The notes below the pieces were generated by a model. The model worked only from the letters and a program-made list of their open reading frames with translations, was not told the DNA's origin and did not search any database. Made by a program: the position numbers and the translations under genes. Positions 15,800 through 44,761 of a DNA stretch of 44,761 nucleotides are shown piece by piece; position 1 is the stretch's first letter; the number at the start of each line of letters is the position of its first letter. Source of the DNA: Gracilaria domingensis (Eukaryota > Rhodophyta > Florideophyceae > Gracilariales > Gracilariaceae); the NCBI GenBank assembly GCA_022539475.1, contig VCMS01000453.1:1-44761 (forward strand). The letters are read 5' to 3'.

Positions 15800-17553
15800 A
15801 CGCAAGAGTGTTCTCTACCCTTGACCGCCAACTCGGGGTATTGGCAAGTGGAAATAGACCAGCCCGATAGGGACAATACTACTTTCACCTCCACGTTGGT
15901 CTCTAACCCGCTTGTATTCGGATGCCATTTGGTTTGAAGAACGCCCCTGCGACGTTTCAAAGAGCTATAGATGTCATCTGAATAAGGTTGCTGCATTTGC
16001 TATCGTGTATCTCGACGTGTCATAATCTACTCGAGCCTCCGTCACGGATCATTACCGACACCTATCTAAGGTACTTGATCTGCTCCGAGAAGCCGGAATA
16101 ACATGAAGTTGAAGAAGTGCTTCTTCTTCAGTCAGCAGTTGATTACCTGGGACATGTGATCCGACCCGGGAAGCTTCAAGTGGCGTCGAAGACTTGTGAC
16201 GCTGTGACAAAAGCTAAACCACCACGGACACAGACCGAGCTCCGGGCGTTCCTAGGTCTCTCCAATGTCTACAGACGCTTCGTGCCGAACTTTGCAAGGA
16301 TCGCCCACCCGCTGAACCGGAAGCTGAGAAGACCAACCTGTCGACCTCGAACCGTTTTCGGAAGAAATATGGAGGCGTTCGAAGAACTGAAGAAGAGGTC
16401 ACCTCCCCTCCAATTCTATCTTTACCGAAACCCGGAAAGCCTACATCTTGGAGACGGACGCCTGTGACCGTCAAGTCGGATGTACTCTGCTACAGCAGCA
16501 AGAAGATGAGAAAGACTACCGCCCATCGGATACTGGAGCCGTTCGTTAACCGCGCCGGAAAGGAACTACAGCACCTCTGAGCGAGAGTGCCTGGCCATCG
16601 TATGGAGCATGCTACTTCTAAGGCCATACCTGGAAGACAACGTTTTGTAGTTCGAACGGATCACAACGCTTTGCGCTGGCTCCTCAATATAACCGACGCT
16701 ACGGGAAGACTCGCGAGGTGGCGTCTACGCCTCGCAGAGTTTGACTTTGAGGTGCACTACCGACCGGCATAAAACATCTTCCTGCCGACGCAGTGTCACG
16801 GATGCCGACCGACGGAAATGATGAGACGCCTTTGGAGGATGAAATCCCATGCCTGTTCATAGAAGAGATGGAGACCGACACGGACTATGTTGTGGCAGAT
16901 GTCCTCGTTAACGGAGAAGTCATCAAGGACGCGCTGATCAACTGGCCAACAATCACCGATGACGGTGAGCCCTTGCATGTATTCACAACCGTCCCGGAGC
17001 AACCTGCCGTCACTCCGATAACGGTTGAAGAGTTCATTGCCGCCAGGCGAGGGACTCTTTTTGCAAAGCTAAGGCCGAATCCGTCGGAGATCCTAAATCC
17101 AGTTTGACTACAACCGTCCCGGGATACTGTGCAGAATATCACCGATCGACGGAGCAGTACAGAGAGTCGTACCGGAGTCCCTACGGGAAAGAGTTCTTGA
17201 ACTCGCTCATTTCCAACGCTTGGCTGGACACCCCGGTGCAATCAAGATGTACTACACCCTACGTCGGGATTTCTACTGGCCACTCATGTCGCAGCATGTA
17301 TTTGAGACCGTCTCTCGGTGTGAACCGTGTCGAGCCGTTCGCGGAACTCATTTCAGGAACCAAAAATACTTGAAGTTGTTCCCGGCAACGGGTCCTTCGA
17401 GTTTGTGGCCATGGACATACTCGGACCATTGCCGAAAACCGGACGCGGAAAGAGATACATATTGGTGATAACGGACCGCTTTACTAAGCTCACTCGAGCC
17501 ATACCGCTGTCGGACACGAAGGCCGCTGATATCGCTATCGCGTTCCTCGAGAA
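15800..17553 (+). CDS. Element A pol: reverse transcriptase, RNase H and integrase N-terminal part (frame-broken, partial)
   Basis: This encodes the replication enzymes of a Ty3/gypsy retrotransposon. The RT part begins at the gap with an SGYWQVEI motif (about 15833). It continues with FGLKNAPATFQRAID in another frame (about 15930-15975) and a broken version of the YLDD active site near 16005-16020. 16117-16467 has the end of RT (LGHVIRP, AFLGLSNVYRRFVPNFA) and the start of RNase H. 16587-16772 has the RNase H end (TDHNALRWLL). 17200-17345 encodes the integrase HHCC zinc finger (GHPG..TLRRDFYWP..SRCEPC). 17400-17560 begins the integrase core with the first catalytic Asp (MDILGPLP). At least four frame changes interrupt it. 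They may be sequence errors next to the gap or real decay. Confidence 0.85.
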
Positions 17554-18777
17554 TTGGGTCTACCCTTACGGATTCCTACTTACCTCCTCACCGACAATGG
17601 CCCACAGTTCGTCGCCAAGTACTTCGAGTCGCTCTCTGCTGATCTCGGTATTACGCACGCTCTCACGACGGCATATCATCCGCAGACGAACGGGCAGGCC
17701 GAAAGGTTCAATAAGGTTTTGGTGAACCGCTTGCGGCATTACGTAGCAGAGCACCAGAAGGACTGGGATAAGTTGGTCCAGCCGTTGGTGTACGGGTACA
17801 ACCTGCAGGTTCACCGCTCAACCGGATTCACTCCCTTCGACCTCTCTCTTACGCGGCACCCTCCCGGGATCGTGCTCGACGAGCCTACGTCAGCTCTCCC
17901 GCAAACGGCATCTCTCCACCCGACAACGGCTGAGACCCGTCGCGTAACACGGGCCCGAATATCGGAACTAATCAAGCTAGCCTACACCAAATTAGGCAAA
18001 GCGCAGGAGCGCTACAAAGCGTCCTTTGATTCCCGGATACGGTACACTCCAACCTTTAAGGAAGGGGATATGGTTTACTTGGACGCTCCGCCTCGGAAGA
18101 AGAATTCAACTGAGTACGAGGATATCGTCAAGAAACTGCTGCCGGCTTCGGAAGGTCCGTATAAGGTCGTTCGTGTTACCGACACTACTGTCACACTGGA
18201 TATTGACGGGTTACACGATATTGTTAGTATTGACCGAGTGACGGCGGCGCCCGCTCCTGTTTCCGAGGAGAGCGCAACCCCCGCCCCCGTCACCGATTCT
18301 AGTTCCGAATCGGCCACCCCTCCTATTTCCGAAGAGAGGGAAAATATGGCTGATAAAACCAATAATGGAAGAGCCGCTACGGAACCGAACGCTCGCCCAG
18401 AAGCGCCGCACTCGGAGGCCACGCCTGCACAGCCGCTGGAAGAACCCGCTCCGGTTGAAGACAGTACCTCCGATACGCCGCTCGCTGCACACGCGACTCC
18501 GCCTACATCTCAGCCGACCACGGCTTCTACTCACCCAGAGACGGAAAAAGAATGGTTCGTGGAGAAGGTCACCGGCCACGGTACAGCCGAAGACAGTGAG
18601 GAGCTCGTACGAGTGAAGTGGTACGGTTTCAAGAAGTCTACGTGGGAACCGAGCCGCAACATTCCACACAACTTTGTAGAACGGTACTTCCGACGAACGG
18701 CTCGCGAGGACGCATCGCAACCTAAGAAGGGAGGTACGAAACGCCAAACACGGAAGCAAAGAATCCTGAAACGGTAG
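17554..18777 (+). CDS. Element A pol C-terminus: integrase core, GPY/F module and chromodomain
   Basis: This is an open frame of 407 codons in phase with the end of a longer polyprotein. The second integrase Asp is in LLTDNGPQF (residues ~12-20) and the catalytic Glu is in TNGQAERFNK (~44-54), completing a DDE triad. A GPY/F-type module (LPASEGPYKVVRV, ~195-210) and a long Pro/Ser/Thr/Glu-rich linker follow. The C-terminus is a chromodomain (EKEWFVEKV..VKWYGFKKSTWEP..NFVERYF, about residues 325-380). In chromoviruses such domains direct integration to chromatin marks. Aromatic positions W and Y/F of the fold are present. The frame ends with TAG at 18775. It is the best-preserved retroelement protein in the window. 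Confidence 0.93.
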   Translation: MGLPLRIPTYLLTDNGPQFVAKYFESLSADLGITHALTTAYHPQTNGQAERFNKVLVNRLRHYVAEHQKDWDKLVQPLVYGYNLQVHRSTGFTPFDLSLTRHPPGIVLDEPTSALPQTASLHPTTAETRRVTRARISELIKLAYTKLGKAQERYKASFDSRIRYTPTFKEGDMVYLDAPPRKKNSTEYEDIVKKLLPASEGPYKVVRVTDTTVTLDIDGLHDIVSIDRVTAAPAPVSEESATPAPVTDSSSESATPPISEERENMADKTNNGRAATEPNARPEAPHSEATPAQPLEEPAPVEDSTSDTPLAAHATPPTSQPTTASTHPETEKEWFVEKVTGHGTAEDSEELVRVKWYGFKKSTWEPSRNIPHNFVERYFRRTAREDASQPKKGGTKRQTRKQRILKR

Positions 18778-19144
18778 TCCGCCTCCAACATTCCAGAAGC
18801 GTTTCTCCGAATCCCGGCATTGGAAAGCGACAACAGCTGGCGCGGGTTACTATTGTGCTCACCATCACATTCATGAAGCACAGAATGTAACAACAACATT
18901 GAGAAACAACCCGTATATCGGAACAGATTGAGAAAAAAGCAACCCGGACAGCTTTACAGCAATATGCTCAACGCGCGGCACACACGGGGGCGCCCAGCAT
19001 GGACGCGGCACACGCGGTGGCGCAAAGCAAGGACGCGATGCACGCGGCGGCTCCCAGCAAGGTCGCGCCACGCCACGGAGAGCGACAGTACCATGCGCGC
19101 ATGCTCTCTAGGCCCGTATACAGCAGGGAGCGCCTGGAAGCGCC
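18778..19144. other. Post-pol spacer of element A with a 30-bp tandem repeat
   Basis: No gene is supported. The notable content is three consecutive 30-bp units at 18974-19003, 19004-19033 and 19034-19063, each beginning CGCG(G/A) and rich in CACGCGG and CAGCAAGG. A fourth partial unit follows. Because 30 is a multiple of three, one + frame reads as 10-residue Ala/Lys-rich repeats (DAAHAVAQSK, DAMHAAAPSK). Confidence 0.6.
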
Positions 19145-22199: not shown

Positions 22200-23757
22200 C
22201 GTTTGACAGCTCCAGTCCCGCTTCGGGTACGACCATCATGGTTTCCTTTCAAGGATCTCACCCCTGGACGGTGCAATTCAGCGCCTGGTCCCTCCAACCC
22301 TGCGGGACCGCGTACTCTATCTATCGCATTTTCTAAGATTAACTGGTCACCCTGGAGGGAAGAAAATGTAGGCGACCCTCAGACGGGACTTCTATTGGCC
22401 ATTCATGGCGAATGAAGTTTATGAGACCGTCAAGAATTGCCGGTCATGCGCTGAGACGCGAGGTACGCAGCACAAGCATCAGAAGTATCTGAAGCTATTT
22501 CCCGCAGCGGGTCCCCTGGAATTTGTCGCTATGGACATACTGGGGCCACTCACGAAGACCCCACATGGTAATCACTTTATCTTGGTCATTATTGACCGCT
22601 TCTCTAAGCTGGCTCGCGCTATTCCCTTACGGGCTACAGAAGCTAACAATATCGCGCTTGCCTTCTTGGAGCACTGGGTATTCTCCTATGGGGCACTCCA
22701 GTACTTGCGGACCGATAACGGACCGCAGTTCGTCGCGAAATTCTTCGAAGCCCTTTGTGGGATCTAGGTTTGCGTCATTTACTGACGGCGGCCTACCACC
22801 CGCAGACTAACGGACAGGCGGAGCGTTTTAATCGAACCCTTGTGGGACGCCTTAGGCATTACGTGTCTGAGCACCAGCGAGACTGAGATGATTTCGTCCA
22901 GCCCTTGGTCTCCGCGTACAACTCCCAGGTTCATAGAACCACCGGGACGACACCTTTTGACTTGGTGTTAACGCGACACCCACCTGGAATCGTCGTGGAC
23001 GCCCCAACTACTGCTATCTCTCCAGCTGGGTCTGAAAATCCGAATTCGGTCACAGTGAAACGTCAGACACGCGCGCGTATCCGGTATCTCCTTTCGAAGG
23101 CCAAAGCGACAATGGACCGTGTCCAGCGGCGCTACAAGTCCGACTTCGATTCCCGTGTACGGGCTCAGCTTTCGTTTTCCCCTGGGGACTACGTCTTTTT
23201 AGACCGCCCTCCACGGAAAGCAGCGGAGACTGCGGAGGATAAAGGTATCTCCCGCAAGCTCCTCCCTAGGACAACTGGTCCCTTTCGGGTTGTCAAAGCT
23301 ACAGACACAACCGTGACCATCTTGGACGGCGACCTGCATGACACGGTTTCCATCGACCATATCACAAAAGCCCCACGGGGTCCTGGCGCGTCCGAGTCAC
23401 AGAAGACGCAGCCGGAAAAGCCTCAGCCCGCATCAGCCCCACAACGCCGGTTTCCGAGGCGTCTGACCCCGCTGGGAACGCTACTTCTGAGCCACAGTCT
23501 ACTGGCCCTAAGCAGGTCTCGGTCGATCCTACGACCTTGCCTGAACCCTCCGGGTCACCCCTCCGAGACGTGGAATTGCCGCGTAAACTCCTCGAGGAGG
23601 AAGGCGAGGATTCCGGTGAATGGGTCGTAGAAAAAGTCCTCAACGAGGGTGTGGCCTCTGAAGGGTCTGCAGTCTGCAGTCGTCAAAGTGCCGTGGTACG
23701 GTTACCCGCCCTCGAGAGACTCCTGAGAGCCTCTCAAAAACATTCCCTTTAACTTTG
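22200..23757 (+). pseudogene. Element B pol remnant: integrase and chromodomain, 5'-truncated and disabled
   Basis: This begins in the integrase zinc-binding region (GHPGG and TLRRDFYWP-type motifs, 22340-22400; NCRSC at about 22435). The catalytic core follows (MDILGPLTK at 22530, TDNGPQF at 22713, NGQAERF near 22808). 22905-23630 gives the integrase C-terminus with a GPF module (TTGPFRVV). The chromodomain (GEWVVEKVL at 23615; WYGYPPSRDS near 23695) is broken by a frame change. Two stops look like Trp codons mutated to TGA: 22885-22887 in the integrase and 23722-23724 in the chromodomain. It is a chromovirus related to element A but a distinct subfamily. The missing 5' half fits interruption by element A. 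Confidence 0.88.
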
Positions 23758-30488: not shown

Positions 30489-31505
30489 TCACATCCTTCT
30501 CTCCTTCTGTCCCCTCATAATCCCCTTCGCAGTCCGCGCTACCTCCGCCGCATTCCTAAACCCAGTCACCACCGGAGCTCCGACTCCATCCGGCGGCACC
30601 TCCTCCACCACCTTCTTCATCTCCTTACGCCTCTTTTTCAGACGGCTCTTCCCATCCCCAACCCCACCACTCTTTGTCTTCGGTGTCACAGGGGACCCCT
30701 TCCGCACCGCCACCCTTCCCACACTTCCCTTCTCCGTCTTTCCCTCCACACCTCCTTTCACCGTCTACTCTTCCACCAATCTTTGCCTCTTGCCCAGCTC
30801 TTTCACTTCCTTCTCCAGCACGTCCAACCTCTCGTTCAGAACCCTATTTTCCTCCCGCAACTTTCCAACCTCCCTTCCCGCACACTCCACTATCCCATAC
30901 ACATGATTTCTCATCTCCACTCCCAATACCGACAACGAATTCCGCAGGCTCGAAATTGCCTCAACCGAAACACCACTACCACCTCCACTCAGCACCACAC
31001 CGCCCATTTCCGTTACAATCTCCACAATTCCATCGTCCAGTTGCTCCTTCATCACCAACCCCAACATCCCCACCCTCGCCTTCATCTACCCCACAAACCG
31101 CATCTCCCTGTCACCCTCTCCGCCCCCACTCTCTATCAGGTCTCCAACCTCTAACTGACTCAGATGCACCGCACCCCTTCTCTCCATTGCGACCCCCTCC
31201 ACCTCAAATTCTACACCCTTCTCCACCTCATCATCATCCCCTCTCCTCGCCTCACACTTCTTTCCTTCATCGGTCACTTCCTTGTTCTGCGACATCCGAC
31301 CAGCCGCCGTAATCACGTCCTCTTCCCGCTTTGGTGACGGCGTCGGCGGTACCTCCTTCCCCTCCAACAGCGCCAACAGCTCCTCATCCTTCACGTATCC
31401 GTTCGACATCTTCAGAAGAAGAAGTAGTAGTTCGATCGAAGTTTCCGCAGCGATACAGCGCAATCGAGCTAAACTGTGCTGTCCACCCCCACTGTCCAAC
31501 CACAC
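30489..31505 (-). CDS. Unknown basic/coiled-coil protein, one frame with two in-frame TAG codons
   Basis: A single minus-strand frame runs from about 31505 to TGA at 30489, broken only by TAG at 31086-31088 (followed at once by ATG) and at 30765-30767. The likely start is the ATG of MSNGYVKDEELLALL, near 31408. The first part is acidic with KREED. The second has a heptad-like helix (LREENRVLNERLDVLEKEV), predicted to be a short coiled coil. The third is Lys/Arg-rich with SRLKKRRKEMKK, a likely nuclear localisation signal. The + strand ORFs over the same bases (30252-31312) are Pro/Ser-rich shadows. Possible explanations for the TAGs are small unspliced introns (GGGTAGATG resembles a donor), decay or read-through. 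No homology is recognised. Confidence 0.55.
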
Positions 31506-32049
31506 GGGCTATATCCAGCACCATGATTGTCTCTGTTTCCCTCATCCCATTTCCCGCCAAAACATCTACTGTACACCTCCGCACCTTCCACTTTTTAAGC
31601 GCCACCTCTCTGTCTCCTCTTTCGCGCTCACATAATCCCCACCCACCTCGCCTCGACCGGCGATATTTTTCTCTTCTACCATAACCTCACTCGATGGTTA
31701 TAGCAAAACAGGAAGATATTGCCAGTGGAGGCAAGCTAGGGACTTTTGATTGTACTTACAGTAGCTCACCCTCTGTCTCGACTGGGGGCATCTTCTTCTT
31801 CCGTCACATCCTTTCCAGGTTGTGACAAGAAAAGAATATGTCACCACTCGACACCGGATGGGTAACAATGATAGCACGTAGAGTAGTTCATCCTCCCTCT
31901 CAGCGTCCACTGGAGATATATTGATGTTCTCTCACATCCTTTCCCGGTTGTGATACAAGAGAAATACATCTCCAATGGAGACGGAGAATATAGTCGTGAT
32001 AACACGTAAAGGTAACAATGTAATAAACAATAATTTTATGGTACTATCT
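31506..32049. other. Intergenic region with a diverged direct repeat
   Basis: No gene is convincing. Two diverged copies of a ~45-bp segment lie ~128 bp apart (about 31803-31850 and 31930-31976). They share TCACATCCTTTCC(A/C)GGTTGTGA, a following AAGA(A/G)AA, and later ATAACACGTA-like strings. A + ORF at 31282-31684 is Ser/Pro/His-rich and probably spurious. Confidence 0.45.
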
Positions 32050-32493
32050 CTAACCAACCTTTCGAAAACCAGCTATGACATGAGCTGGGTTACTCGAGCC
32101 AAAGATGGCAGATCCTGCAACTGAAATGTTTGCACCGGCCTTCACTACTCCTTTCACAGTACTCAGTCCAATACTCCCATCCACCTGTATCCCTATTCTT
32201 GGGTACAACTCCCTTGCATGTCGCACCTTATCAAGAACACCCTCCATAAACGCCTGTCCTCCAAACTCTGGCTCCACCGTCATCAACAATAACATGTCTA
32301 CAACTCCTTCCTTCATAAGTGCTTCTACGACCTTTATAGACGTATTCGGGCGCAATGCAACTCCAACCTGCATTCCCATCCTTTTAATTCGGTTACATAA
32401 TTCCTTCAACACCACTTTCTCTTCCTCAGTTGGTACCTCAAGCACGCAATATCCATTCTGCCTTAGCTCAGCTTGCATTCGGGCGAAGAACAT
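32050..32493 (-). pseudogene. Ribulose-phosphate 3-epimerase, C-terminal half only
   Basis: Residues ~20-147 match the second half of the (beta/alpha)8 enzyme that interconverts ribulose 5-phosphate and xylulose 5-phosphate. Visible motifs are a GMQVGVALRPNTS strand-helix, VEPEFGGQAFME (usually EPGFGGQ, so Gly is replaced by Glu), an IQVDGSIG segment carrying the second catalytic Asp, and VAGSAIFGS. The N-terminal ~90 residues with the metal-binding His-x-Asp and the other His are absent, so the fragment alone cannot be an active enzyme. The frame is contiguous with the upstream 571-codon ORF: TAA is followed immediately by ATG. It ends with TAG at the usual C-terminal distance. It may be a captured exon, an insertion-disrupted gene, or the last exon of a gene whose first exons lie elsewhere. 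Confidence 0.85.
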
Positions 32494-34209
32494 TTACCCA
32501 AATTTGTCATGCTCCTTCGCAGCAACCCTCAGCACCTCTTCATCATCCATACCTGTCGGCCGAGTACGAGGATACTGCATACCAAATGTCTCCGCCCGTA
32601 GGCGATGTTCAGCCCTTGCAGCGTGCCAAAAGACAAGATGGTGTACATCTCTGAGATTCGAGACACTTAGCAGCTCCGACCTATGTCCCTTCGGCAAGTG
32701 AATGACTCTGAGCCAGTGGTTCTTGTGCTCAATTACGTTCTTCTCTTGCCATTCCTGCGGTCTCAGCCTGACATACCCGCAACATGATGGGTTCGGTGGG
32801 CCATCATATGGGTCTCCTCGAACAAGTCCGTGCTCCTCAGATTCCGGAAGAGCTGTAGGTAACTCGTCATCAAATGACCCCCCACCTGTCTCTTGCTGAT
32901 CGTCTGGCGCAGCATCTTTTTCGACGGTGACAACCCGTGGAACCGTCACAGAAAGAAGCTCTTCGTTATCCACAAATGCAGAACTGCCTGCGTTCTCTGC
33001 ATTCGCTCCCTCTCCCAATGCCACGAACTGAACCTTCATCGACCTTCCTCTCAGCACATGTTCATTTAGTTGAGACATCAGGTCATCCGGTGTCATGCTG
33101 TTCAGAGTAGATCTCATCTGTTGTGTGAAAGTCTTTCTCCGTTTCTTCCTCGGCGGAGCCCACTGTTCTTCTTCAGAGCTATCCAGAACTTCTATCGCAC
33201 CTCGATTTCGGCCGTGCTCAATTTCCCTATAACTCACCTGCGCCCGTTCTCGTGCACTTCTTCGCGGCTCCCCTTCTTCACTTGTAGATGTTGCAGCAGC
33301 AGCAGCGGGAGTCCTCCTCTTCGTCACGGACTGCTTCACTGGTGCGGGGGGCGGAATTACCTTGAGCATCGTCCGCAATCGATTCTGAACGGAAGTCGTG
33401 GCGGTTCTAGTTGAGTTCGTCCTGCTCCGAACACGCGGCAATGTGTTGAAGTTCACAACTTGTCCCAAAAGGAACTGATACACAGCTGCGTTGTTGTCTG
33501 GGTCTTCAACGTCATCTTCAGTCGATGGAGCAGAAAGGCTGACTTCGCGTTTCAGGAACACTTCCATGGACTCTTCCTCGTTCAGTTCATTCCTCACTGC
33601 TCGAGCCGCCCGGAACAGAGACACTGCTCTATCATAAAAGAAACCTCGGACCTCCTCAAAGCTTTTACATTGCTTTGTCTTCGTCGACTTGCCCTTCAAT
33701 AGAAACATCTGAAGACAATCAAGAATGAAGGAAAACTCCTCGGCATCCAAAACATATAGCGGAGTATGGGACAGATGTGTGAGACCTATGTCACTCACAG
33801 TCTCACATATGTCCTCGAAATGGGCCAGCATTCCCTCACGACACATGAGTTGCAGGGCGACATTGGCATATCTCAGATACTGACGCTCTTGCACAGTCCC
33901 AATCAGTTGGCTCTCCTTCAACACTTCTGTCACTTCTGCAGGATCCACGTCTGCCGGCGTCACCCCCTCAACATCTTCAATTAGAATGTCGACCACACTA
34001 ACTATAGAGTGTATCTTGTCTGCAAACATCATCCTTCGCATGGTACTCGTCGACTCATTGAGGAATGAAGCAACACATAACAATTCCTTCATCCCAATGG
34101 GCCTCCCATCTCCTCGTATCAGCAGATTGCAACGCCAAAACTTGGTTAATCGCTTCCACTTCGGTGCACCAGTCCGTCTGTGTTTCCGGGATGCTAGTTT
34201 ACAGTCCAA
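32494..34209 (-). CDS. Unknown 571-codon ORF with SUMO-interaction-like and nuclear-localisation motifs
   Basis: This is a long open frame ending TAA at 32494. The first codon in frame is not ATG; either the ATG about 40 codons in (GMKELLCV) is used or an upstream exon splices in (a CTAG acceptor-like site precedes CATCCCGG near 34195). The N-terminal half is mixed helical. The middle is basic and low complexity (TKRRTPAAAAATS). It then shows AIEVLDSSEEEQ, a hydrophobic-acidic SUMO-interaction-like motif, followed by PPRKKRRK, a nuclear localisation signal. The C-terminal 150 residues are acidic, then contain CCGYVRLRPQEWQEKN and HHLVFWHAARAEHRLR, not recognised. It is probably nuclear. The same SUMO-interaction-like signature occurs in the methyltransferase gene at the right edge. 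Confidence 0.7.
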   Translation of the reverse strand: MDCKLASRKHRRTGAPKWKRLTKFWRCNLLIRGDGRPIGMKELLCVASFLNESTSTMRRMMFADKIHSIVSVVDILIEDVEGVTPADVDPAEVTEVLKESQLIGTVQERQYLRYANVALQLMCREGMLAHFEDICETVSDIGLTHLSHTPLYVLDAEEFSFILDCLQMFLLKGKSTKTKQCKSFEEVRGFFYDRAVSLFRAARAVRNELNEEESMEVFLKREVSLSAPSTEDDVEDPDNNAAVYQFLLGQVVNFNTLPRVRSRTNSTRTATTSVQNRLRTMLKVIPPPAPVKQSVTKRRTPAAAAATSTSEEGEPRRSARERAQVSYREIEHGRNRGAIEVLDSSEEEQWAPPRKKRRKTFTQQMRSTLNSMTPDDLMSQLNEHVLRGRSMKVQFVALGEGANAENAGSSAFVDNEELLSVTVPRVVTVEKDAAPDDQQETGGGSFDDELPTALPESEEHGLVRGDPYDGPPNPSCCGYVRLRPQEWQEKNVIEHKNHWLRVIHLPKGHRSELLSVSNLRDVHHLVFWHAARAEHRLRAETFGMQYPRTRPTGMDDEEVLRVAAKEHDKFG

Positions 34210-34557
34210 AAATCGCAGAAAAAAAATGCTAGTATTTCATATGTTAAATTGCGATAAGTGGAAGTTTGAAGTGGAAGAAAAACTAGAGTAAACTCCAGAA
34301 TCTGCAGTATGGTTTGAATGGAATACTAGGCTTGACTTTCAAACTACGAGCTATTTCTAAGAAATATGAAAGTTGCTAGAATCTTAGAACTAACTTCCAT
34401 TTCTGCTAGTTCACTAGTACTACCGGTCCATCGGTCCAAAAGAGCCATCGGTCCGAAAGCACGGTGGAAGTTCCATCCTAGCAGAAATGAATGTTATTGA
34501 TGCAGTATTGCAGGTTCACGCAAGGTATAGCACCACATGAAAACAGGTCCAAACCGG
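34210..34557. other. Intergenic region with a short foldback
   Basis: No gene is seen. CCATTTCTGCTAG (near 34398) and CTAGCAGAAATGA (near 34478) form an inverted repeat around ~70 bp. Inside it CCATCGGTCC appears twice (34428-34437 and 34447-34456). It resembles a small MITE or solo foldback. Confidence 0.45.
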
Positions 34558-34661
34558 TCATCGTACACATCTCCATCCTACTTCCCACCCCCGAAAATCC
34601 ATTCTGACATCACCAAAGAAGCCCTGTATCATTTTGAAGACAATTACGCATCGAAACTCAC

Positions 34662-35963
34662 CGAATAGATACCCTGAAAATGCTCTCGTTGCCCTCAATG
34701 TAGACATCCCCTTGGTTAGTTTTCTGTTGCCTAGTCTCTTCGTCCATCCCAACATGGAAATAAACACACTTACCTCAACATTCTTCGCCATCTTCATCTC
34801 CCCAACTCCCTCGAAAACATCTCTACTGCACAATTTCCAGCACCGCCACCGATCCATTGCCATCCAACGCACCTGCACATGCACAAACACAAGCTAGTCA
34901 AATACTCCGTTAGATACTTTTCCATCTTCGAAACTTTCCCAAATGCACACTTATCTACTTACCATGTGTCCCTACCTCACCAATAGCCTCGAAAACACGA
35001 ATCAAACTGTCCCGAAAATCCTGCACATACACATAAAACAGTAACCAGTTAGCATTCTTATCAGAACTCGAACAAAAAACATCTCGTACTTACCCCGACG
35101 CGTACCTTGCCATCCACACCGAACTCTGACGAACAGGAATTTGGAGTAATGGCAAAGAATGATTACCTGGAAGGCCTCCGTTGAGGTAATCATTCTTTCC
35201 ATGACTCCAAACTCTTGTTCGTCAGAGTTCAGGGTCATTAGCATGATTCCTCTAGAAACCCAGCCACCCAGCCACATCGTAACCATTCTCCCTTATCCAC
35301 TTCACCTCAAAAAACACGTTACACATAGGAAACGAAGTAAACCACCGCCTTCCGCCCCATCCCCATTCCACTTCCAATCCAAAGATCCCGCACGCTATAA
35401 CTCCATGAACCTATCGCGCTCATTCTCGCAAACAGCCCCCGCCGCGCACTCACATATCCCGTTAGCTAACTCTTCGCTCTTCGAAACATTCTCAAATGAA
35501 CACTCATCTAATTACCATGTGTCCCCTACATCACCAATACCCTCGACAACACGCATCGAACTGTCCCAAAAGCCCTACGCATACGTATACAACATTATCC
35601 AGTTAGCATTCACATCAAAAGTCGAACAAAAAGCTTCTCAAACTTACCCATAGGCCCCCGCCCAAGACATTCACGCTAACCTGCTTCCAAATCCTCTCCG
35701 TGCGTCTCGCAAAATCACGTAACGTTCTGCAGTTAGACTTCGCAAACACCATCAGCATCAAAAGGTCTCACTTACATTGAACCCACTCAGTACGCATCCC
35801 AAACATAAAACCCCTGAACTACTCCGGTTCCAATCCAAAGATTCCGCACGCTGCAGCTTCATGAACCTGTCGCGCTCATTCTCGCACACAGCCGCCGCCG
35901 CGCAAAAACACGGGTCAGAGTCGCGCATATTCGCCATATCAAACATTTACGCCTCGACTTACC
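34662..35963 (-). CDS. Intron-dense gene segment (unidentified), with duplicated exons
   Basis: This is called from splice signals rather than ORFs. Minus-strand donors GTAAGT (GTAATT in one copy) lie at 35962, 35775, 35647, 35515, 35093, 34962 and 34773, each with a branch-like CTAAC and a CAG or TAG acceptor. Predicted exons are about 35776-35850 (or from 35866), 35648-35726, 35516-35574, an exon ending at 35094, 34963-35020, 34774-34872 and a 12-nt piece at 34662-34673. Introns are 49-100 nt, two of them exactly 73 nt. Exon peptides such as FRDSLIRVFEAIGEVG and TLRDFARRTERIWKQ are helical, but the family is not recognised. One duplicated block carries an in-frame stop, so part may be pseudogenised. 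Both gene ends are undetermined. Confidence 0.5.
34915..35094 (-). repeat. Exon-intron block, copy 1 of a tandem duplication
   Basis: Matching segments: 34915-35094 with 35480-35650, and 35370-35470 with 35825-35925. The offset of the first pair is ~554 bp and of the second ~456 bp. The ~98-bp difference is explained by the foldback at 35121-35230. Splice donors, the TGCTAAC branch and the acceptor are kept in both. Confidence 0.65.
35121..35230. mobile_element. Foldback (MITE-like) insertion, ~110 bp
   Basis: Arms 35121-35168 and 35184-35230 are inverted copies, about 48 bp each with a handful of mismatches, around a ~15-nt loop. Its length matches the size difference between the two offsets of the tandem duplication, so it probably inserted into one copy afterwards. 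No coding capacity. Confidence 0.65.
35480..35650 (-). repeat. Exon-intron block, copy 2 of a tandem duplication
   Basis: This is a diverged copy of 34915-35094. It contains the 59-nt exon 35516-35574, a 73-nt intron and the TGCTAAC branch. The next donor has drifted to GTAATT. Confidence 0.65.
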
Positions 35964-36016
35964 TGTTTCGCACGTTTCACATCCCAGGACAGGACTCTGA
36001 GAGGCAACGCCACTGA

Positions 36017-36456
36017 AGCTCACAGAAGAAGAACTTCAATCGCAGCCACACTGTACGTCAATCATCGCCGGCCGCGTAATGTCCCGTCCGCGAAAATTTT
36101 TGAAAGTTGTGTTCAGAAAAGTTCGAAATCCTCCCCACACTGAAACATGCAGGAAAGGTACGTAAACGATCACGTGCACGGTGGAGTTGGTGGCGTATAA
36201 ACACACTTTATACTCTCCCCTGCAGGGTGCTCCAAGATTCTGCGCCGCACCATCACCACCGACCTCCCTCTGCAAGCAGCTTCCCTCACTACTTTCATAC
36301 CCTCTCACCCAGCCATGCACAACTGTTGTTTCCCCCGCTGCTCATTCCATACACAGTCCCTCGCCTCTCTCGCCCAGCATCAGAAGCGATGCAGACACAG
36401 GAATGACCCAAACCCGTTTCTCACCCCCACACTTCATCGAGGATCCCACTTCTCTC
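36017..36456. other. Region upstream of the transposase; candidate promoter and leader
   Basis: No confident gene. GGCGTATAAACAC at about 36192 is TATA-like. CTCCCCTGCAG at about 36218-36228 resembles a splice acceptor. A short + frame starting at an ATG at 36403 (MTQTRFSPPHF) ends at 36534 and might encode the first exon of the transposase. Confidence 0.35.
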
Positions 36457-39400
36457 CCTGAACCAAGCGCCGCAGACTCAACAACACCGAACCCCCTTCC
36501 TTCCCCTCCTCTAACCGCCCGTCCGATAACGTAGAACTCGCAGACGACGACCCTTATCTCCAGGAACAGCTTGCTCTCTCCCTACGCTCATCCGACGCAG
36601 CACAGATACTCAGCCCGCATCACCAACTCGCCTCCCAGTCCCCTTCCACAGGCTCAGGTAACGCCTTGTCCCCCTCTCCACCCTCACAGAAAGACCACAT
36701 CCATAACCTCGTCACCTACATATCCTCCATCGCCACAAAACTCGGAAAGCGTTCTGCTGACGAGCTCATCAACATTCTCAAGCACTCCACCTTTCCCTCT
36801 TCCCTCTTCCAGACCTCTATCACTTCCGCTGCCGAATGTCTGAAACTGCACTCCAAAATCTTCGAAGAAACAGTCAGCTCCATTGGGTTCACCTCAGCCA
36901 TCATCCATGACAAAAACCATAACTTCTCCGCCACCCTCTACCTCAGGGACCCCGTTCAGGTTCTCCTACAACAACTTCGTCTCGCATCCCACAGCAACTC
37001 CTTCTTTCATCCAGTCAAACAAGCTTCAAGAACAGGAACTACCGCAATCGCACACCCTATGGCTTCGGAACTCGGCCGCCATGTCGTCCCGACTATCAAG
37101 AGGCATATCATGCATTCTCCGGACCCCGACGTCATCTGGCACGATCCCAGTATCACCGGCACAGACTCGTTCGTTGGCCTCGTTCAACTATATTCAGACA
37201 AGTCTTCCACCTCTTTGAAAAGTTCTTCTGTTACGTCGTATCCTCTTCACATCACCCTCCTCAATTTCAATGACTCCTTCCGCAGAACGTGCATCACGCA
37301 GAACTACACACTCGTCGGATACATACCCACATCCTTCACCTCCGACTCGTCCTCCACTGACACAGATTCCTTGGAAGTCGCTCCCTCAACCCCCAGCGTG
37401 ACCCGCATTGTGCGCATGCAGCTCGTCCAGGAGTCCCTAGAAACCATCCTCAAACCTCTGTATCATATCGGTATGAAGGGTTTTCCCTTCCGCGACGCCA
37501 AAGGAGTCCTTCGTCAATGCCATCCAGTCATCTCCAACTACAGCGCTGACATCCCCGAAGCCAAGGACATTCTCGCAGTACTTTATGGCACAAAGCCAAG
37601 CAAACCCTGCCACCGGTGTCTCCTCCCTCGTTCAAAACTCAACCCTTACCAACCTACTCTCACAGAGCGAACCCTCTCACACACTTTGCAAACCAGAAAA
37701 AGACATGATGACCTACTTCTCGAGTCAGATTCTGCTCTCCTCTCCCATAGACCACGGGTTGCAAGGAACCTCAAAGAAGAAGCTGCAGAACTTCTCCACT
37801 CCACCTCTCTCTCTCCATACAAGTCCTTTCTGGAATCTTACCCTCTTCTCAACATCTCTTCACTGCTCACTCCTTATTCAATCTTCTCCTTCGAGCCCCT
37901 TCACAACTTTCACCTTGGCATCTCTAAACTCATCAAACTCGCCACAATCGAACGCCTGAAGTCCGATTCTCTTCACACTTCCGTGGGCTTCAATGGATCC
38001 TCCAGGTCGTTTCGGTCCATCAGAACATCTATTCTTACTCACGCCAACTCCATCCTAGCTGACATCGAACGCTCGTTTCCGGCTCCAGGGCTTCATATTG
38101 ATTTCTCGACATCTGAAAAGGGTAAGTCTCTCAACGGCTTCTTCACCACTGACGGAATCAGAGGCATGCTAGAAGCAAAGGACTATCGCGCCCTCGACAT
38201 GGTCTTCCCCTTCATCGGTGCATTCTTCGACCGTTGCTGCGGTGAAGTATCTCGCGCCCCAATAACCACCATTTTCACCTCTTACGTCGATCTCGTCAAT
38301 AATGTTCTTCACTACCACACTGCCCCAGAATGGACTGATGATCGCTTACGCTCTTTGGAGACTCTCATCAAGAACTTCAAGACTCAAACTGTCTCAGTTT
38401 TGGGTCCATACCAGGCCTCCAACTTTCGTACTCTCAAATTCCATCTCCTGGATCACATCATTCCAGACATCCGTCGATACGGAGGCCTCCATTTCGGTGA
38501 TGAAGGTGTGTACGAGCACGCGCATCTCCTCTTCAAGAACCACTACCGCCGTACCTCTCGCAGAAGATCAACTGCGCATAAGGAAACAGTGGACTCAATC
38601 CAAGAGTCGCAGGATTTCTTACACTCCATCTCGGTAAGGAAACACTTCTCCATGTCTACCAACTAGGCCAGTCGTTTGTCGCAGCGGTGTCCCTCCATGG
38701 TTCGTGATGGTAGTTCATTCTCCCTCTTCGACATCATCACGGCCGACAAGTATCTACGGTCCCATCCAAACGTCCCGTCATCTGCTCTCACAGATTTGTT
38801 CTCCAAAACTACATTGCAGTTCATCAACCAAATCTCTCGCGACGCCCTCTCTTCCGTCCGTACCCTAAGCTTAGAAACTCTTCAACCGTGAGACAACCCC
38901 CATGACATCAAAATCACCGTCGTTAACTCCGCTTACATTGTTTCTGGATTCTGCCCCTCGCTGGATGACTACGATCGTCACTTTCAATGCATTAGACTGC
39001 GAGAGCCGGAGGTCTCTTTGTGTGAACGTATTTTTGCAACCACTTCTTTCGGCCCTTCCAAGTCCCCAAAATTCTCTACCGTCCTGGTTAATGGAACTCC
39101 TCCTCCCGGTTGTGACTTCCCGACCGCATGGGTATGCAAAGTCTTTGCCCTGGTTCGCTTTAGCAGATGTAACCAAAGCAATTCCGATTCTGAATTTGCC
39201 TTTGTTCGCTTCTTCGAGGTAACGGAGCCGTTGGATAACATTGACGAATCCTTGAACTGCATTTCCCTCCGCTGGGCCACGGATGACGAGGAAGATCACA
39301 CATTGCAAACCTCCAATTCTCTAAAACGGTCAACAAATGCATCTGTATCCCCATGGTTCGGTCTCGTCCCATTCTCTTCGATCAAAGGCTTGGTACACAT

Positions 39401-39533
39401 CCTCCGACAAAACTATCCCGCACGCCTCTTTTTCCCTCCATTGCACTGGAAGTTCCACCGATTCTACATTGACAGATTCTATCGCAATCCCCGAGCTCGT
39501 TTACAATACCATCCAATCACCAAACTTTCGTAA
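36457..39533 (+). CDS. Plavaka-like (CMC/EnSpm-related) DNA transposase
   Basis: The frame is open from just after a TGA near 36457 to TAG 38664, then in phase to TGA 38889 and on to TAA 39533. The early part has a basic KRRR motif. Numbering from 36666, the catalytic-core pattern is LYSDKS (Asp178), YPLHITLLNF (192-201), a VGYIPT segment, the HIGMKG..GVLRQCHPVISNYSADIPE block (Asp295) and PCHRC (314-318). This matches the order seen in fungal Plavaka transposases. The first internal stop falls in a convincing 51-nt phase-0 intron, 38634-38684 (TCG|GTAAGG ... CTACCAAC ... TCGCAG). The second, in ACC|GTGAGA at 38888, may begin another intron ending near 38996. The C-terminal part resembles the usual tail (FALVRFF near 39148). 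The true start is not resolved. Confidence 0.75.
38634..38684 (+). other. Predicted 51-nt intron in the transposase gene
   Basis: Donor GTAAGG, a CCAAC branch-like site and acceptor TTTGTCGCAG. The length is a multiple of three and it lies between codons, so the frame is unchanged by splicing and the TAG at 38664 is removed. Confidence 0.6.
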
Positions 39534-39549
39534 CGTAAACCATAATGCA

Positions 39550-42100
39550 TTAGTGACGTTCTATCCAATTCTCCTCATGTAATCCTTCTTGCACAGACCT
39601 TTCCCTTACATCCCTTTCTGCAGTTATGTCGTAGACCATACGGTCTCCCCGACTACAGCATCCAACATAGCAATCCAGTACAGCTCCGAGCTTCTCAGAG
39701 ATCTCTCCCATAAACACATCTTCTCGGACAGCAAGGTACATTTTCCTTTTCGACGGAATCCAGTAAACCACAGTGCCCACCCGGTCATCATTTCCATGCC
39801 GCGCATCTTCAGCATTCGATGGGCCATTTCTGAACTCTGTTGGATAACTCTGCTGCATGCGGACCCTCACGGTCTTCAGTATACTCTCAAGTGCCAGTGG
39901 TAGATATTTCCCGAACAAGTTGGAGAACAACACTTGTCTCTTACCACCTCTCCCTCGTTCAGACTCTGTCGCGCGAACAACGGACGCTATCCAGGCATCA
40001 AGACGTGCCAGATTCATAATTGTTCCATCCACTGGATCCCTCTCTTCGGTATTCCTCGAACTTGTTTGTAAAACGTCGTAGCCCATGAACTCACGCAGCA
40101 TCTCCAAGCTCAGGCTGTTCCGAAAAAGCAAGTCACATGGTTCATCTTCGGTTGCATGATATGGGTTAAAGCCCGAGAAACATATATCTTCTACCTTCTG
40201 AGTTCTCTACGACGACAGAATCTCACATCCATTTGCATCTTTGGGTAGGAGTTTTTCACGTACCTCTCTGGTTTGTATTTCATACTTGTTCTGCTCCCTT
40301 TCATCATTTTTTATCGGGGTCCTTACAAGCATGTCGTAACCTAGTCCCATCAATAACTTCTCCTTCGTATGGCGTTTTCGAACACCTATTGCATCACTTA
40401 AAGCCTGTTTCAACCTTCTGCGCAAACAAATGTCGTGCGTTAACTGTTTCACACAGTCATCTTCCATTTTCATTCCTCGGATAGATTCCCAACGTGGCTT
40501 CATTACCTCCGTCTCCACAATTTGCATCAATAAATGGTCGCCTCCACCACGCACGGATGGCGTGTACGCCCTCATCTCCATGGCAAGATCCATTGGGCAC
40601 CGTGGCACTATCTCCTTCCCATCAACAACCAGCACACTGTCGTCTTTCTCAGGTCCAACTGTCTCACTTCGGTTGCCCCAGTTCCTTGCCGGTATACTCA
40701 TCTCGAAGCATAGCTCTCCTGTCTCGTCTTTGGCGTATTGAAGTATGGAGTCATAGACGGTCTTCGCAACACCAACAAACTCGTCGTTCACGTCAATGTT
40801 GTACCGCTTCCTGCTCTTGTTACTGTCACGTTCGTTCCTTTTCCCTCCACTTCTGAGAGCCTCTCTCAAAGAGTGTATGAGAACCTCTTGTTCTCTGACC
40901 TTAACCTCCAGTTGCTCTATGTTCTTCTGAGCAAGTCGTACGCTCATTTTCAGACTTTGCTTGTCCTCTATTGTACGATACAGATCTCCCTTCAGTTTCC
41001 CGATCTTTTCCAAAAGCTCGTATCGCGGAGTAAGGGATTCATCTTCATCTTCTTCCATTGCACCATGCAGGGAAAAGCTCCGTGACAAAGCACCATGATC
41101 AACATCTTTATCGTTCCATACTTCTCTACGGGCGTTTGCTATGACAGGTTGCCGATCGTTCCCCACCCGTCTATTCTCATTTCCATGGTTCGTCCTTCTT
41201 CTGACCTGATTGAACCTGTTTCTCTGTAGCTCACTTGTGACTGGTGTCGGTTGTATCTCGTCTTCGTCTTCGTCTTCATTGTGTCTGGACCCAATATAAG
41301 GGACGGAATCATGCCTGCCTTCGATGGGAGCCATATGCGTTGCATTTCCGGCGTCCACGTTATCGTTCGCTTCCACGTTATCCTTGTCCTCGACGTCACT
41401 TGGGATATCTACTGCGTCCGTGGACTCCCGCTCCTTTCTTCCACTGCCTTTCTTGGCACGAGAGACACCATCATTCATTTTCTCGTTCCTCTTCACTTTT
41501 CTCGAATCATAACTGTTACGTTCTGTTCCGGCACCGCATCTGGGTATCTCCCTATCCCCAGGTTCGGCTCTAGGTTCGGCTCTCACGATGGCGCAATCCA
41601 CGGTTTCCATCTCCGCATTGTCATCCGCAGTGCTCACCTTGTCGAAACAATCATCGATACGAGGACCTTCTGTTCCTACACTGCCTCTTGTCCTCCTTAC
41701 ATTCTGACGTACAGCCGTTCTTCTCTTATTTCCTTTCATCGCTTTGACATCTACATTTCCATCATCACTGACCCTTGGCTCTTCCATTGCAGCCATGTGG
41801 CGTGTAACAGGCCCACGCATTGCAATTCTTGGCTTGAACGGTTTCACTTACTGTGCGTTCCGTAGTGCATGTGGAAGCTCCTGACCTCCTTCTCGGTTTT
41901 ACTTCCGATACTGTAGATGAAGATTTTGGTTTGCGAAGTCCAGCACGAGGTGCTCGGCCTCGGCTACCTCTCCCATTAGTAGCACTACTTCGTGAGACGA
42001 CCGCGCTCCTACGTTTGGCCACCTCAGTATCCCAGCGCTCCGGCGGTTTCGATGCCTTTCGCGGTTTACCACCTGCATGCTCCGCACGTTGAGGGGCCAT
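39550..42100 (-). CDS. Unknown basic/coiled-coil protein gene converging on the transposase
   Basis: The likely start is ATG at 42100 (MAPQRAEHAGGK) with a Lys/Arg/Ser-rich exon 1 ending at donor ACA|GTAAGT (41852/41851). A second exon covers most of 41847-40207. Its translation has an acidic, low-complexity N-terminal half (DEDEDE, EDEDES), then a coiled coil of ~65 residues (LLEKIGKLKGDLYRTIEDK through LIHSLREALR) and a C-terminal domain of unknown fold. A TAG at 40207-40209 is followed in the same frame by a further stretch to TAA at 39550 (FRNSLSLEMLREFMGYDV). An 81-nt intron (40226-40146, GTGAGA ... CTTTAAC ... GAAG) would remove the stop in phase. The gene ends 16 bp from the transposase stop, tail to tail, so both may belong to one transposon. 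Confidence 0.6.
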
Positions 42101-42564
42101 CCGAGATCCTTCGGCCTTCGTGCGCGGTAGTATTACGGAACAGATATAGAAACGTGAACGATACTGAAGGTATATGATTGAGAGTGATATGTGAGGGTCA
42201 CGTACTCGGTGTGCAGGACTGATATGTGAAGGCGAGGGGAATTTAACCTCGTACTGCATATATGGAGAAAAGCATTCTGCAGCATTTGTGGCGGATCGGC
42301 ATTCAATTTTGGGACCTTTCCCGGGTCCATATTCCGGACTTGGTCCGATTTTCCCGGATGTTGCGCCCTGCATATACAAGTACGGCACTTTCAACGATCT
42401 TTCATACCACTATATGCATCAATATGTTACACAGTACAGCTTGAGTGTACATATGAGTAGTATTTCTGCAATCACAGCACAAGTGTTCAATACAATTTAC
42501 TTCAACAAAAAGCTTTTCTCACTACATTGAGCCCATACGAAGTTCAAGGACATTGTCTGAGAAC
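42101..42564. other. Intergenic region between two minus-strand genes
   Basis: It holds the promoter side of the gene starting at 42100 and the 3' flank of the SET ORF. Short + frames (42262-42444, 42288-42530) look spurious. GGATCGG and CGGGTCCATATTCCGGACTTGG form a loose local repeat at 42295-42350. No RNA gene is recognised. Confidence 0.4.
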
Positions 42565-43510
42565 CTAGGTTAACCTTTCCCAAGGATATGTGGGTCCATA
42601 GTCAACGTAAATTTCGTCGTGCTCCTTAATGTCCCTTGAGGCCGTGACTACGAGGAGTCTGAAGTTCTCCAAAAGCCCCAAAGTTGTAGCCTGATACTCT
42701 GTGGGCTGGCGAATGAATACATTTGGTTTGCGTGCCATGTTAGAATCCATTTCTTCCAATTCCTTGTCCTCATCACCTTCACGATATGACACGTCATTGA
42801 TATAGCTCGCTACAAAGAAAGGAGCAGGAACTATCCAGGCATGACCAGCGTTGACTTCAGTATCATAATGCGGGAGAGTGTTGTACATTTGCCCCTTCAC
42901 CCTCACTTGCATGCAATACTTCCTGAACCGAGATGCAGTGGCCCCCAGCATTCCGTCTCCATACGTCAAATGTGTGGTATTGCGTCGGCTTAGATCATGA
43001 TACACCAAGGTCCCATAAAAGTATCCAATAACCTCCCCTTCGGAAAACGCCCTACTCGTAAATACTCCATTTCCACTTGCTGCATGTTTGATATTCGACT
43101 TCTTCACATAGAGCCATAGCGATGTCGCCTCGACAGAGAGTAAAGTGTGACTGTCCAACGTAGTCATCTTCCCTTGTAAGGCAAGTGGCCACTCATGGAA
43201 CGGTTTCTCTTTGTACGTAGTGATAAGACCAGGTTCATTCCAATAGGTGGATAGGTACGACATGATATGGAATGGGAAAGATTGGTACGATGGGAATCCC
43301 TTGGGTGCATTCCATATAGTCGAAGTCTTTCGTTTCCGTTCAGGAAATTTGGCATCCACCACATAAGACGCTTGAACTACCTCATTCGTAACCGGTTCTT
43401 TCATCTCGAATTCATTGCGCCACACCTTTCTTGCGTAATGCACAATAGCATTGTGCTTGGCATGAGAGAAACACTGCTCATCTTGCTCACATCCAATGAA
43501 ACGCCGAGGC
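42565..43510 (-). CDS. SET-domain protein-methyltransferase part of a fused gene
   Basis: SET enzymes transfer methyl groups from S-adenosylmethionine to lysines. In the 292-codon frame the SET-N motif is SGNGVFTSRAF (residues 123-133) followed by GEVIGYFYGT. The pseudoknot strand is YINDVSYREG..KPNVFI (214-244), where NDV replaces the classical NHS, a variant common in divergent SET families. The final motif is DEIYVDYGPTY (276-286) with the Tyr of the DYG signature. It ends WERLT then TAG. Upstream, the same frame reads through 43443 into a methyltransferase-like FIGCEQDEQCFSHAKHNAI stretch. That stretch is the natural continuation of the neighbouring methyltransferase ORF in another frame. 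One indel near 43505 therefore separates the two halves of what was probably one protein. Confidence 0.82.
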
Positions 43511-44227
43511 CCTCAATATCCATACATGCCAGCGCGCACGAGAACGTCCCGGAGTAGAGATCAACAACAACACCCCCGGGTTTCGAGAACCTCGCTATTA
43601 GCTCCATCAGTAGCTGCCTCGACTTTTGTTCTGGACGAGCCTTCGCGGTTCGAATTCTTCTACCACTCTTCACTCTCCATCGGAGACTCTCCCCAGGCGT
43701 AAGATTTGGAACCTGGTCAATGATAGAATAGTGCCCAGGATAGCGAGCTGAAACGTAGTTGAAGTTCTGATAGTTCATCATTACCTTCTGTTCCGCGTAC
43801 GGGTTTCCATTCCTCACGCCATGCACGGCGTACTCCGTCGCCCCAAACAGGCGAGTAGTATTACGCGCAGGGTTCTTCAAGGGGTTCGAACGAGAACGAA
43901 TGAAGTTCATGGGCCTCGAATCCACTAAGAATGATGCGGTTTTCTTTCCGCTTGCGTCCTCCGACTTGTGCTCTCGCAAAATCTCTTCCCAATCTCCAAA
44001 CTGGTCGATACTGCAGAACAAAACGAAATGCCTTCCTGGTCGAAGCATGGATGCCATGATGTCCGCAGTATTTTCCATATCATCGTCAGCCAATTCGTCG
44101 TACTCGCTGTCGCGGATGCCATATGGTGGGTCTGTGAGCACGAACTGAACGTTGCCTTCCAAGATGTATCCGATGGGAAAATAGTACCATGGGCCTCCAC
44201 CAGTTCGTCATATCCGACACAATGCAT
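43460..44227 (-). CDS. Bacterial-type beta-class DNA amino-methyltransferase (DPPY), frame-broken
   Basis: The motif order is catalytic motif IV first (FVLTDPPYG, residues 7-15 of the 253-codon frame) and S-adenosylmethionine-binding motif I last (VVVDLYSGTFS, 198-208, followed by IEGLG and, in the next frame, FIGCEQDEQ). That order defines the beta class of N6-adenine/N4-cytosine DNA methyltransferases such as CcrM and M.HinfI. It differs from eukaryotic MT-A70 proteins, which carry DPPW. LRPGRHFVLFC (41-51) and a central variable region are as expected. Upstream, another frame (43925-44227) carries MHCVGYDELVEAHGTIF, probably the N-terminal continuation across a frameshift at about 44165. 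Whether it methylates DNA, and which base, is inference. Confidence 0.85.
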
Positions 44228-44761
44228 TTAGAATTGCTTCTCCATGCTTCCTCGCACCACATCTAGAGCATTTAACGTGCGCGTGTCATCAAAGTCATGA
44301 GGGGGGAGAACCCATCTGGAACGTTATCTTTCGCCCCAACAGAGGCACCAGGTGCATCACCTTCTTCATTGTCGCTATCGAGGATGACGATGACATCGGA
44401 GTTAACTGAGCTTTTCCCTGCGGCGTTCCTCTTGGAGGAGCTCGGAATCTGTATCGAGTCCTCAACCTTAACCGTGACGGTATTATTTCCTCCATCCTGC
44501 CCTGAAGGAGCGGCCCTAGGGATAAGTCGAGATGGTTGGAAGTTATGTACAGACATCGCTTGACGAATAGGAGACACGTACTCTTCGGAGAATACATTGA
44601 AACGGGGGTGGTACTCGTGCGGGGCGGCCAGGTCTGAAGCTTTCCAACAAACTCCATCTGACTTGGACATTTGGTATAGCGAGCCATTTTCAGCACAATC
44701 TTGCTTGGAAATCTGCCAAGAATTCCTCTTGCAAACATCCCGTAAGTTGCGTCGATAGTAT
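44228..44761 (-). CDS. N-terminal segment of the methyltransferase-SET gene with a SUMO-interaction-like motif (partial)
   Basis: The frame is open from the window edge to TAA at 44272, so the gene start lies outside. ATG at 44670 (MSKSDGVCWK) is internal or a possible start. It contains a Ser/Lys-rich stretch (SSSKRNAAGKSS) followed by SDVIVILDSDNEEGD, a textbook hydrophobic-acidic SUMO-interaction-like motif. After a six-base C/G homopolymer near 44301 the neighbouring frame continues as DDTRTLNALDVVRG towards the methyltransferase, interrupted by TAA near 44228. The frameshifts may be assembly errors or decay. Confidence 0.6.

Follow-up and report, generated by a model that had tools for sequence, protein, structure and literature searches.

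We describe a gene of giant (>19 kb) Plavaka DNA transposons of the red alga Gracilaria domingensis that encodes a DNA methyltransferase (MTase) and a SET domain in one protein of ~1050 amino acids, an identification that we regard as virtually certain. The gene, referred to here as MTase-SET, was noticed in a stretch of 44,761 bp (the window), which is the entire contig C453 of the 77.9-Mb assembly. In the window it occupies positions 44761-42565 of the minus strand and is spread over three frames of the open reading frame list (Table 1).

A transposon-borne MTase-SET gene

The initial annotation of the window had described a DPPY motif IV followed by motif I in one minus-strand frame, a SET domain on an overlapping frame of the same direction and an N-terminal segment with VIVILDSDNEEGD, and all three are indeed present, in the frames 44207-43404, 43512-42568 and 44760-44275, respectively. 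DPPY lies within LTDPPYGIR and the later motif I reads VVDLYSGTFSCALACM; the Pfam N6_N4_Mtase match spans residues 20-230 of this piece, which shares 50% identity with protein P0003 over 223 columns. A single indel at about 43505, bridged by FIGCEQDEQ, had also been proposed. FIGCEQDEQ does stand in the SET frame, but the reading frame of the copy is broken twice, near 43.5 kb and again near 44.25 kb, and the contig end truncates the 5' end of the gene. Copies of the SET piece with 94-100% identity exist elsewhere in the genome. Positions 42565-44761 are a decayed copy of one transposon gene, composed of the N-terminal segment, PF01555 and PF00856.

Intact versions of the gene are found at other loci. 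C12:66714-76035 matches window positions 35442-44761 with 98.4% identity over 9.3 kb, and in this copy, which belongs to the same family (W), the gene is a single open frame of 1118 amino acids with both Pfam domains. At least 27 places in the genome, the window's own included, match the W-family SET piece over at least 250 amino acids at 94-100% identity (127 of 637 candidates were scored, and counts are lower bounds). Because of this intact C12 copy and these 27 places, the pattern in the window cannot be attributed to chance. The same search returned a middle group of mostly 55-72% identity and, at 38-39%, copies of a second, diverged family (P), whose protein is 37% identical to the W-family SET piece according to BLAST. 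Among 12 stretches picked from the SET family search, mostly for their long open frames, eight P copies encode 1055 amino acids without interruption. That search gave 150 matches for 150 scored of 311 candidates, again a lower bound; the eight best-scoring ones were set aside as other SET genes and the remaining 142 were kept without individual check. The methyltransferase family numbers at least 150 matches (150 of 328 candidates scored).

Since the two domains occupy different frames in the window, they could in principle belong to two neighbouring genes that appear fused only through frameshifts or an assembly error. We rejected this explanation, to which we assign next to no probability, on the open single frames of the other copies and on 34 database proteins that contain both Pfam domains. 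These findings likewise bear out the claim of the initial annotation that both domains form one chain, and its concern that the frameshifts might be fixed everywhere, with no intact paralogue, is answered by the intact copies. A third version of MTase-SET, of 1170 amino acids, occurs in three copies (L018:1415-4924, contig C382) and has EPPY in place of DPPY; neither of the two frames adjoining it matches a Pfam profile (E up to 0.01), and C382 has no Plavaka match among the matches listed.

The elements carrying the gene share one layout. Both at C171 (P family) and at C12 (W family), the transposase is followed by gene B, which is convergent to it, then by MTase-SET, which is oriented like gene B, and finally by gene 4, which is divergent. 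The transposase profile PF18759 (Plavaka) scores 84.5 bits in the window, 85.3 bits at C12 and 40.4 bits in a P-family part, relative to a cut-off of 26.3; the intact counterpart of the window transposase, C12:67474-70803, has 1110 amino acids. In at least 37 SET-Plavaka pairs the Plavaka match is always on the opposite strand and downstream of SET, and the spacing is 4.46-4.65 kb in 31 of these 37. Carriage by transposons, as suspected initially, is therefore borne out: in every listed pair the Plavaka transposase has the same orientation, at a nearly constant distance. Some points weigh against this assignment. Among the matches listed, 119 of the 142 SET rows and 13 of the 27 W places are without a Plavaka match, the rows lacking a partner having been counted without sorting out contig ends or truncation, and the link of MTase-SET to Plavaka is established in G. 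domingensis only.

At C12 the element extends from about 65,376 to beyond 85,000 with no border met, and the final 4.5 kb of this stretch is matched in full or almost in full at 24 of 34 scored places, C12 among them. The element is therefore longer than 19 kb, provided that the C12 stretch is a single element, as the layout common to many copies suggests.

Gene B probably starts near 42.1 kb in the window and consists of two overlapping frames at C12. Its P-family counterpart L009:5262-7757 has no match in Pfam (E up to 0.1), NCBIfam (E up to 1) or PDB (E up to 1). Gene 4 and MTase-SET are separated in both families by a spacer with an inverted repeat, the arms of which measure about 50-100 bp (C171:16064-16970, where they are about 100 bp long; C12:77286-77902); this repeat is possibly a two-way promoter.

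Table 1. Positions of the MTase-SET gene and the associated transposon features in the window (plain numbers) and at C171
Feature	Position	Strand	Basis
SET part, linker and FIGCEQDEQ continuation of MTase motif I	42565..43512	-	Open reading frame; Pfam SET E=3.2e-7
DNA methyltransferase part, second frame (DPPY motif IV, then motif I)	43401..44207	-	Pfam N6_N4_Mtase E=4.1e-11
N-terminal part of MTase-SET gene, third frame, holding VIVILDSDNEEGD	44272..44761	-	Collinear with the 1118-amino-acid frame of C12
Gene B, broken frames (39550-40206, 40207-41847, 41765-42409)	39550..42409	-	Open reading frames
Plavaka transposase, two frames (36462-38666, 38892-39533), convergent to gene B	36462..39533	+	Pfam Plavaka E=1e-23
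W-family transposon as far as the contig reaches; transposase-side terminus about 34175	34175..44761	-	Copy comparison, flank reading
Gene 4 piece of P-family transposon, W insertion site	32438..34174	-	Translation matches C171 gene 4
Gene 4, P family	C171:16013-12753	-	Open frame
MTase-SET, P family	C171:16953-20117	+	Open frame
Gene B, P family	C171:20261-22756	+	Open frame
Transposase, P family	C171:26033-23037	-	Open frame

The two domains and their relatives

The methyltransferase domain carries the signatures of the beta class. PF01555 scores 55.8 bits in the P family, 55 bits in the W family and 43.7 bits in the window piece (cut-off 26.7), and motif IV (DPPY or DPPF) precedes motif I. 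Across 32 aligned proteins the Asp of motif IV is kept in 30 and its two Pro in 31 and 32, and the Asp and Gly of motif I are invariant. Structure prediction yields a methyltransferase fold and a helical N-terminal region of the protein. The closest solved structures are those of CcrM, M1.HpyAVI (DpnA) and M.BceJIV, bacterial enzymes that resemble the methyltransferase part and, in contrast to MTase-SET, have no SET domain. The enzymes in these structures act on N6 of adenine. In bacteria, DPPY is typical of such enzymes, as is SPPY of those acting on N4 of cytosine (PMC8885841). We predict, on structural models and motifs, that the methyltransferase is a CcrM/DpnA-like enzyme of the beta class with N6-adenine specificity.

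The SET domain is recognized by PF00856 with 32.2 (P protein), 28.2 and 31.2 bits as compared to a cut-off of 22.4, and short profile stretches of this region match EZH2, KMT5A, KMT2C and vSET. The GxG motif is kept in the aligned proteins, the Asn of the NHxC motif is present in 32 of 32, and the catalytic Tyr occurs in all 30 rows that have a letter at this column, two rows being gapped. Within the SET region, the eight intact P copies have a ratio of nonsynonymous to synonymous polymorphism (pN/pS) of 0.35.

Several points speak against an active second writer. The His of NHxC is Asp in 31 of the 32 proteins, which renders SET activity uncertain; some active SET-like domains likewise deviate at NHxC. 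The eight P copies used for pN/pS had been selected for intactness, and constraint is weaker on the SET piece of the W family, for which pN/pS is 0.66 in 12 copies, one of which has a stop. The 50 rows shown by the fold searches are all for methyltransferases, this one domain having filled the list, so that the evidence for a SET fold comes from Pfam and the short profile stretches. The domain might therefore be a degenerate, non-catalytic module that docks the DNA methyltransferase to chromatin, making the protein a targeted DNA writer rather than a dual one. The Asp replacement and the modest scores of 28-32 bits are in line with this alternative, but the retained GxG, Asn and catalytic Tyr are not, nor is the pN/pS of the intact P copies, though the W value is higher; we consider it rather unlikely.

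Relatives were found outside of this genome as well. A database search with the P protein returned 29 relatives of 28-46% identity, of which 20 have both Pfam domains precomputed; in BLAST all 29 align to the window SET piece, the weakest being from Pyropia (E=5e-14). A second, alignment-based search gave 34 rows, among them 14 new proteins with both domains next to partial and methyltransferase-only rows. One of the 34 database proteins with N6_N4_Mtase and SET domains mentioned above is from Chondrus crispus; another named relative, from Pyropia vietnamensis, is partial and has, by Pfam, the MTase domain only. Gracilaria, Chondrus and Pyropia, and so no fewer than three red algae, thus have beta-class methyltransferases of the bacterial type, whereas the study of the rotifer enzyme N4CMT states that its enzyme lacks homologues in eukaryotes (PMC8885841). 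A fungal host, which the Plavaka transposase at first suggested, was rejected in view of the Chondrus homologue and of the G. domingensis proteins matched by gene 4. P0049, assigned to a 'Bacteroidota' metagenome bin, is partial and covers the methyltransferase part only; we infer that it is a mis-binned eukaryotic piece. The nearest bacterial-type rows include the ParB-methyltransferase proteins P0056, P0057 and P0061.

A viral origin of the fusion found no support: no viral MTase-SET is present among the best 80 of at least 149 confirmed relatives in IMG/VR, which was scanned with two methyltransferase patterns, and all of these 80 match within query residues 446-754, that is the methyltransferase part, only.

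Known counterparts and possible role

Transposons carrying a chromatin enzyme are known. In fungi, Plavaka elements with TET/JBP dioxygenases likewise combine a Plavaka transposase with a chromatin- or DNA-modifying enzyme, but theirs is an oxidase of 5-methylcytosine (5mC), whereas the red-alga element carries an N6_N4 methyltransferase-SET protein, gene B and gene 4 (Kojima 2025, PMC12730594). HarbingerS and MuDR of Phytophthora, cited in the same paper, also have a SET histone methyltransferase on a DNA transposon; they belong to other transposase superfamilies, and the passage concerned mentions no DNA methyltransferase (PMC12730594). In the giant Plavaka repeats of Amoebidium, many genes encode tyrosine recombinases and the term 'SET domain' is absent from the main text (PMC11244446). 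N4CMT of bdelloid rotifers, which is described as having no eukaryotic homologues, is a host gene with SPPY and a chromodomain, in contrast to the DPPY or DPPF, the SET domain and the transposon location seen here (PMC8885841). Indeed, MTase-SET has neither of these N4CMT hallmarks: for a chromodomain there is no Pfam match in the P protein (E up to 0.1) or in the W protein (E up to 0.01). What appears to be new, relative to an open-access library, is that one chain combines a DNA methyltransferase with a lysine methyltransferase; searches of that library showed no report of such a fusion, which agrees with the initial annotation. If both domains are active, a selfish element could write DNA and histone marks together.

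We tentatively favour self-marking or anti-silencing as the role of the gene, at slightly less than an even chance. That is, the MTase-SET protein would methylate the element's own DNA, and its SET domain would place a lysine methyl mark on a neighbouring chromatin protein. The element might thereby gain a non-host chromatin state, which could keep its genes expressed, or flag it to the transposase, in spite of silencing by the host. This proposal is preferred because other Plavaka elements carry TET/JBP enzymes, read by the author as aiding escape from silencing (PMC12730594), and because a selfish gene retained through spread should serve the element. The explanation taken whole, a transposon MTase-SET gene engaged in self-marking, seems to us evenly poised between right and wrong. 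It is a point against it that sequence alone cannot decide between activation, silencing and transposition.

The initial annotation had envisaged a silencing enzyme. We see no sign of repression here, and the escape reading of transposon-borne TET/JBP also points the other way (PMC12730594). The element might still act as a self-limiting silencer that puts N6-methyladenine (6mA) and a repressive lysine mark on its own copies and so restrains its own activity. The related beta-class enzyme N4CMT, with its chromodomain, acts in chromatin-based transposon silencing (PMC8885841), and with SET as part of the same protein, marks on DNA and on histones could become coupled. However, N4CMT is a host gene and here the element itself carries the enzyme; moreover, dozens of highly similar copies (the 27 places of the SET piece) and gene 4 side DNA mostly 98-100% identical among copies are unlike strong self-restraint, and we regard this alternative as quite improbable.

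Alternatively, the methyltransferase may serve transposition, with methylated or hemimethylated ends as a cue for transposase cutting and the SET domain modifying the transposase or the target chromatin. The enzyme adjoins the transposase at near-constant spacing in the 37 pairs, and in bacteria the regulation of Tn10 and IS10 by Dam provides a precedent. Since the ends are mapped on the transposase side only, where no methylation site is known, we deem this use unlikely. Whichever role applies, self-marking being the one we favour, the elements offer a red-algal system for asking whether 6mA shields transposons from silencing through 5mC or histones.

Gene 4 could extend the self-marking proposal. 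The P and W versions share 28% identity over 627 columns and 45% over 101 columns of a C-terminal stretch. Both families keep HTDF and the His of GDVxHA, at spacings of 76 and 77, and this HxD...H stretch (L053:882-1349; P0033 residues 323-399) resembles the iron ligands of 2-oxoglutarate dioxygenases. These residues suggest that the C-terminus is a putative 2-oxoglutarate dioxygenase. Of the long genomic matches to the C-terminal part, 58 of 84 are without internal stop (84 of 738 candidates scored). In W gene 4 at C12 the HxD...H stretch is in a different frame from the rest of the gene, reflecting either an intron or a break. Even at E up to 10, Pfam yields nothing for P0033, which alone among P0031-P0033 contains HxD...H; P0031 is likewise without a match and P0032 matches only TFIIA at E 0.37, in a search whose HMMER filters can lose remote relatives. 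Overall, Pfam, NCBIfam and PDB gave nothing usable for gene 4, including no Pfam match to TET/JBP, and the AlphaFold model of P0033, made from three sequences, has a predicted local distance difference test (pLDDT) score of 28.2. Pairwise hhalign of the gene 4 middle with the ParB regions of bacterial ParB-methyltransferases (E 0.0025, probability 11.7%) offers a suggestion only that this part may be ParB-like. When the gene 4 piece was compared with protein databases (E up to 1e-3), the only matches were three G. domingensis proteins, at 88-94% identity, whose public names 'mediator subunit 15-like' and 'SasA' look wrong.

With low probability, the element may represent a kit for writing and erasing, in which a writer of 6mA and lysine methylation in one chain would be accompanied by a ParB-like/2-oxoglutarate dioxygenase product of gene 4 that erases host marks. 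In that event the host chromatin state would be replaced over the element's own 20 kb, and MTase-SET would be the first dual writer of DNA and protein methylation.

Element ends and nested insertion

The transposase-side end of the W family is sharply defined. Of 40 scored copies, 38 lose similarity within the same 11 bases, and the exceptions are C171 itself and C61, which has the same flank. It reads about CGTCTGTGTTTCC; only transposase-side ends were mapped, and that of the P family is equally sharp in 39 of 40 copies. Plavaka termini are described as 5'-TGT..ACA or CATCA..TGATG with duplications of 2-3 bp (PMC12730594). Here, no target duplications and no far end of the element were found, nor any terminal inverted repeats at the element ends. 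Many P copies (e.g. C171:26500-27000) have extra repeats of part of the terminal region, in steps of about 375 bp, beside the transposase-side end.

The W element of the window, which starts at about 34175, interrupts gene 4 of an element of the P family and is thus a nested insertion; the adjoining positions 33992-34174 share 97.8% identity with L019. C171 exhibits a similar nesting at a different position of gene 4.

The gene 4 piece is abutted by another high-copy repeat, at window positions 30802-32437, with at least 39 further copies of 95-97% identity (40 of 728 candidates scored), matches to which end at 32369-32439. Inspection by eye revealed a fragment resembling ribulose-phosphate 3-epimerase within 32050-32437, and integrase/chromodomain-like retrotransposon frames at 16100-18800 and 22372-23630, e.g. 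17530-18777 on the plus strand.
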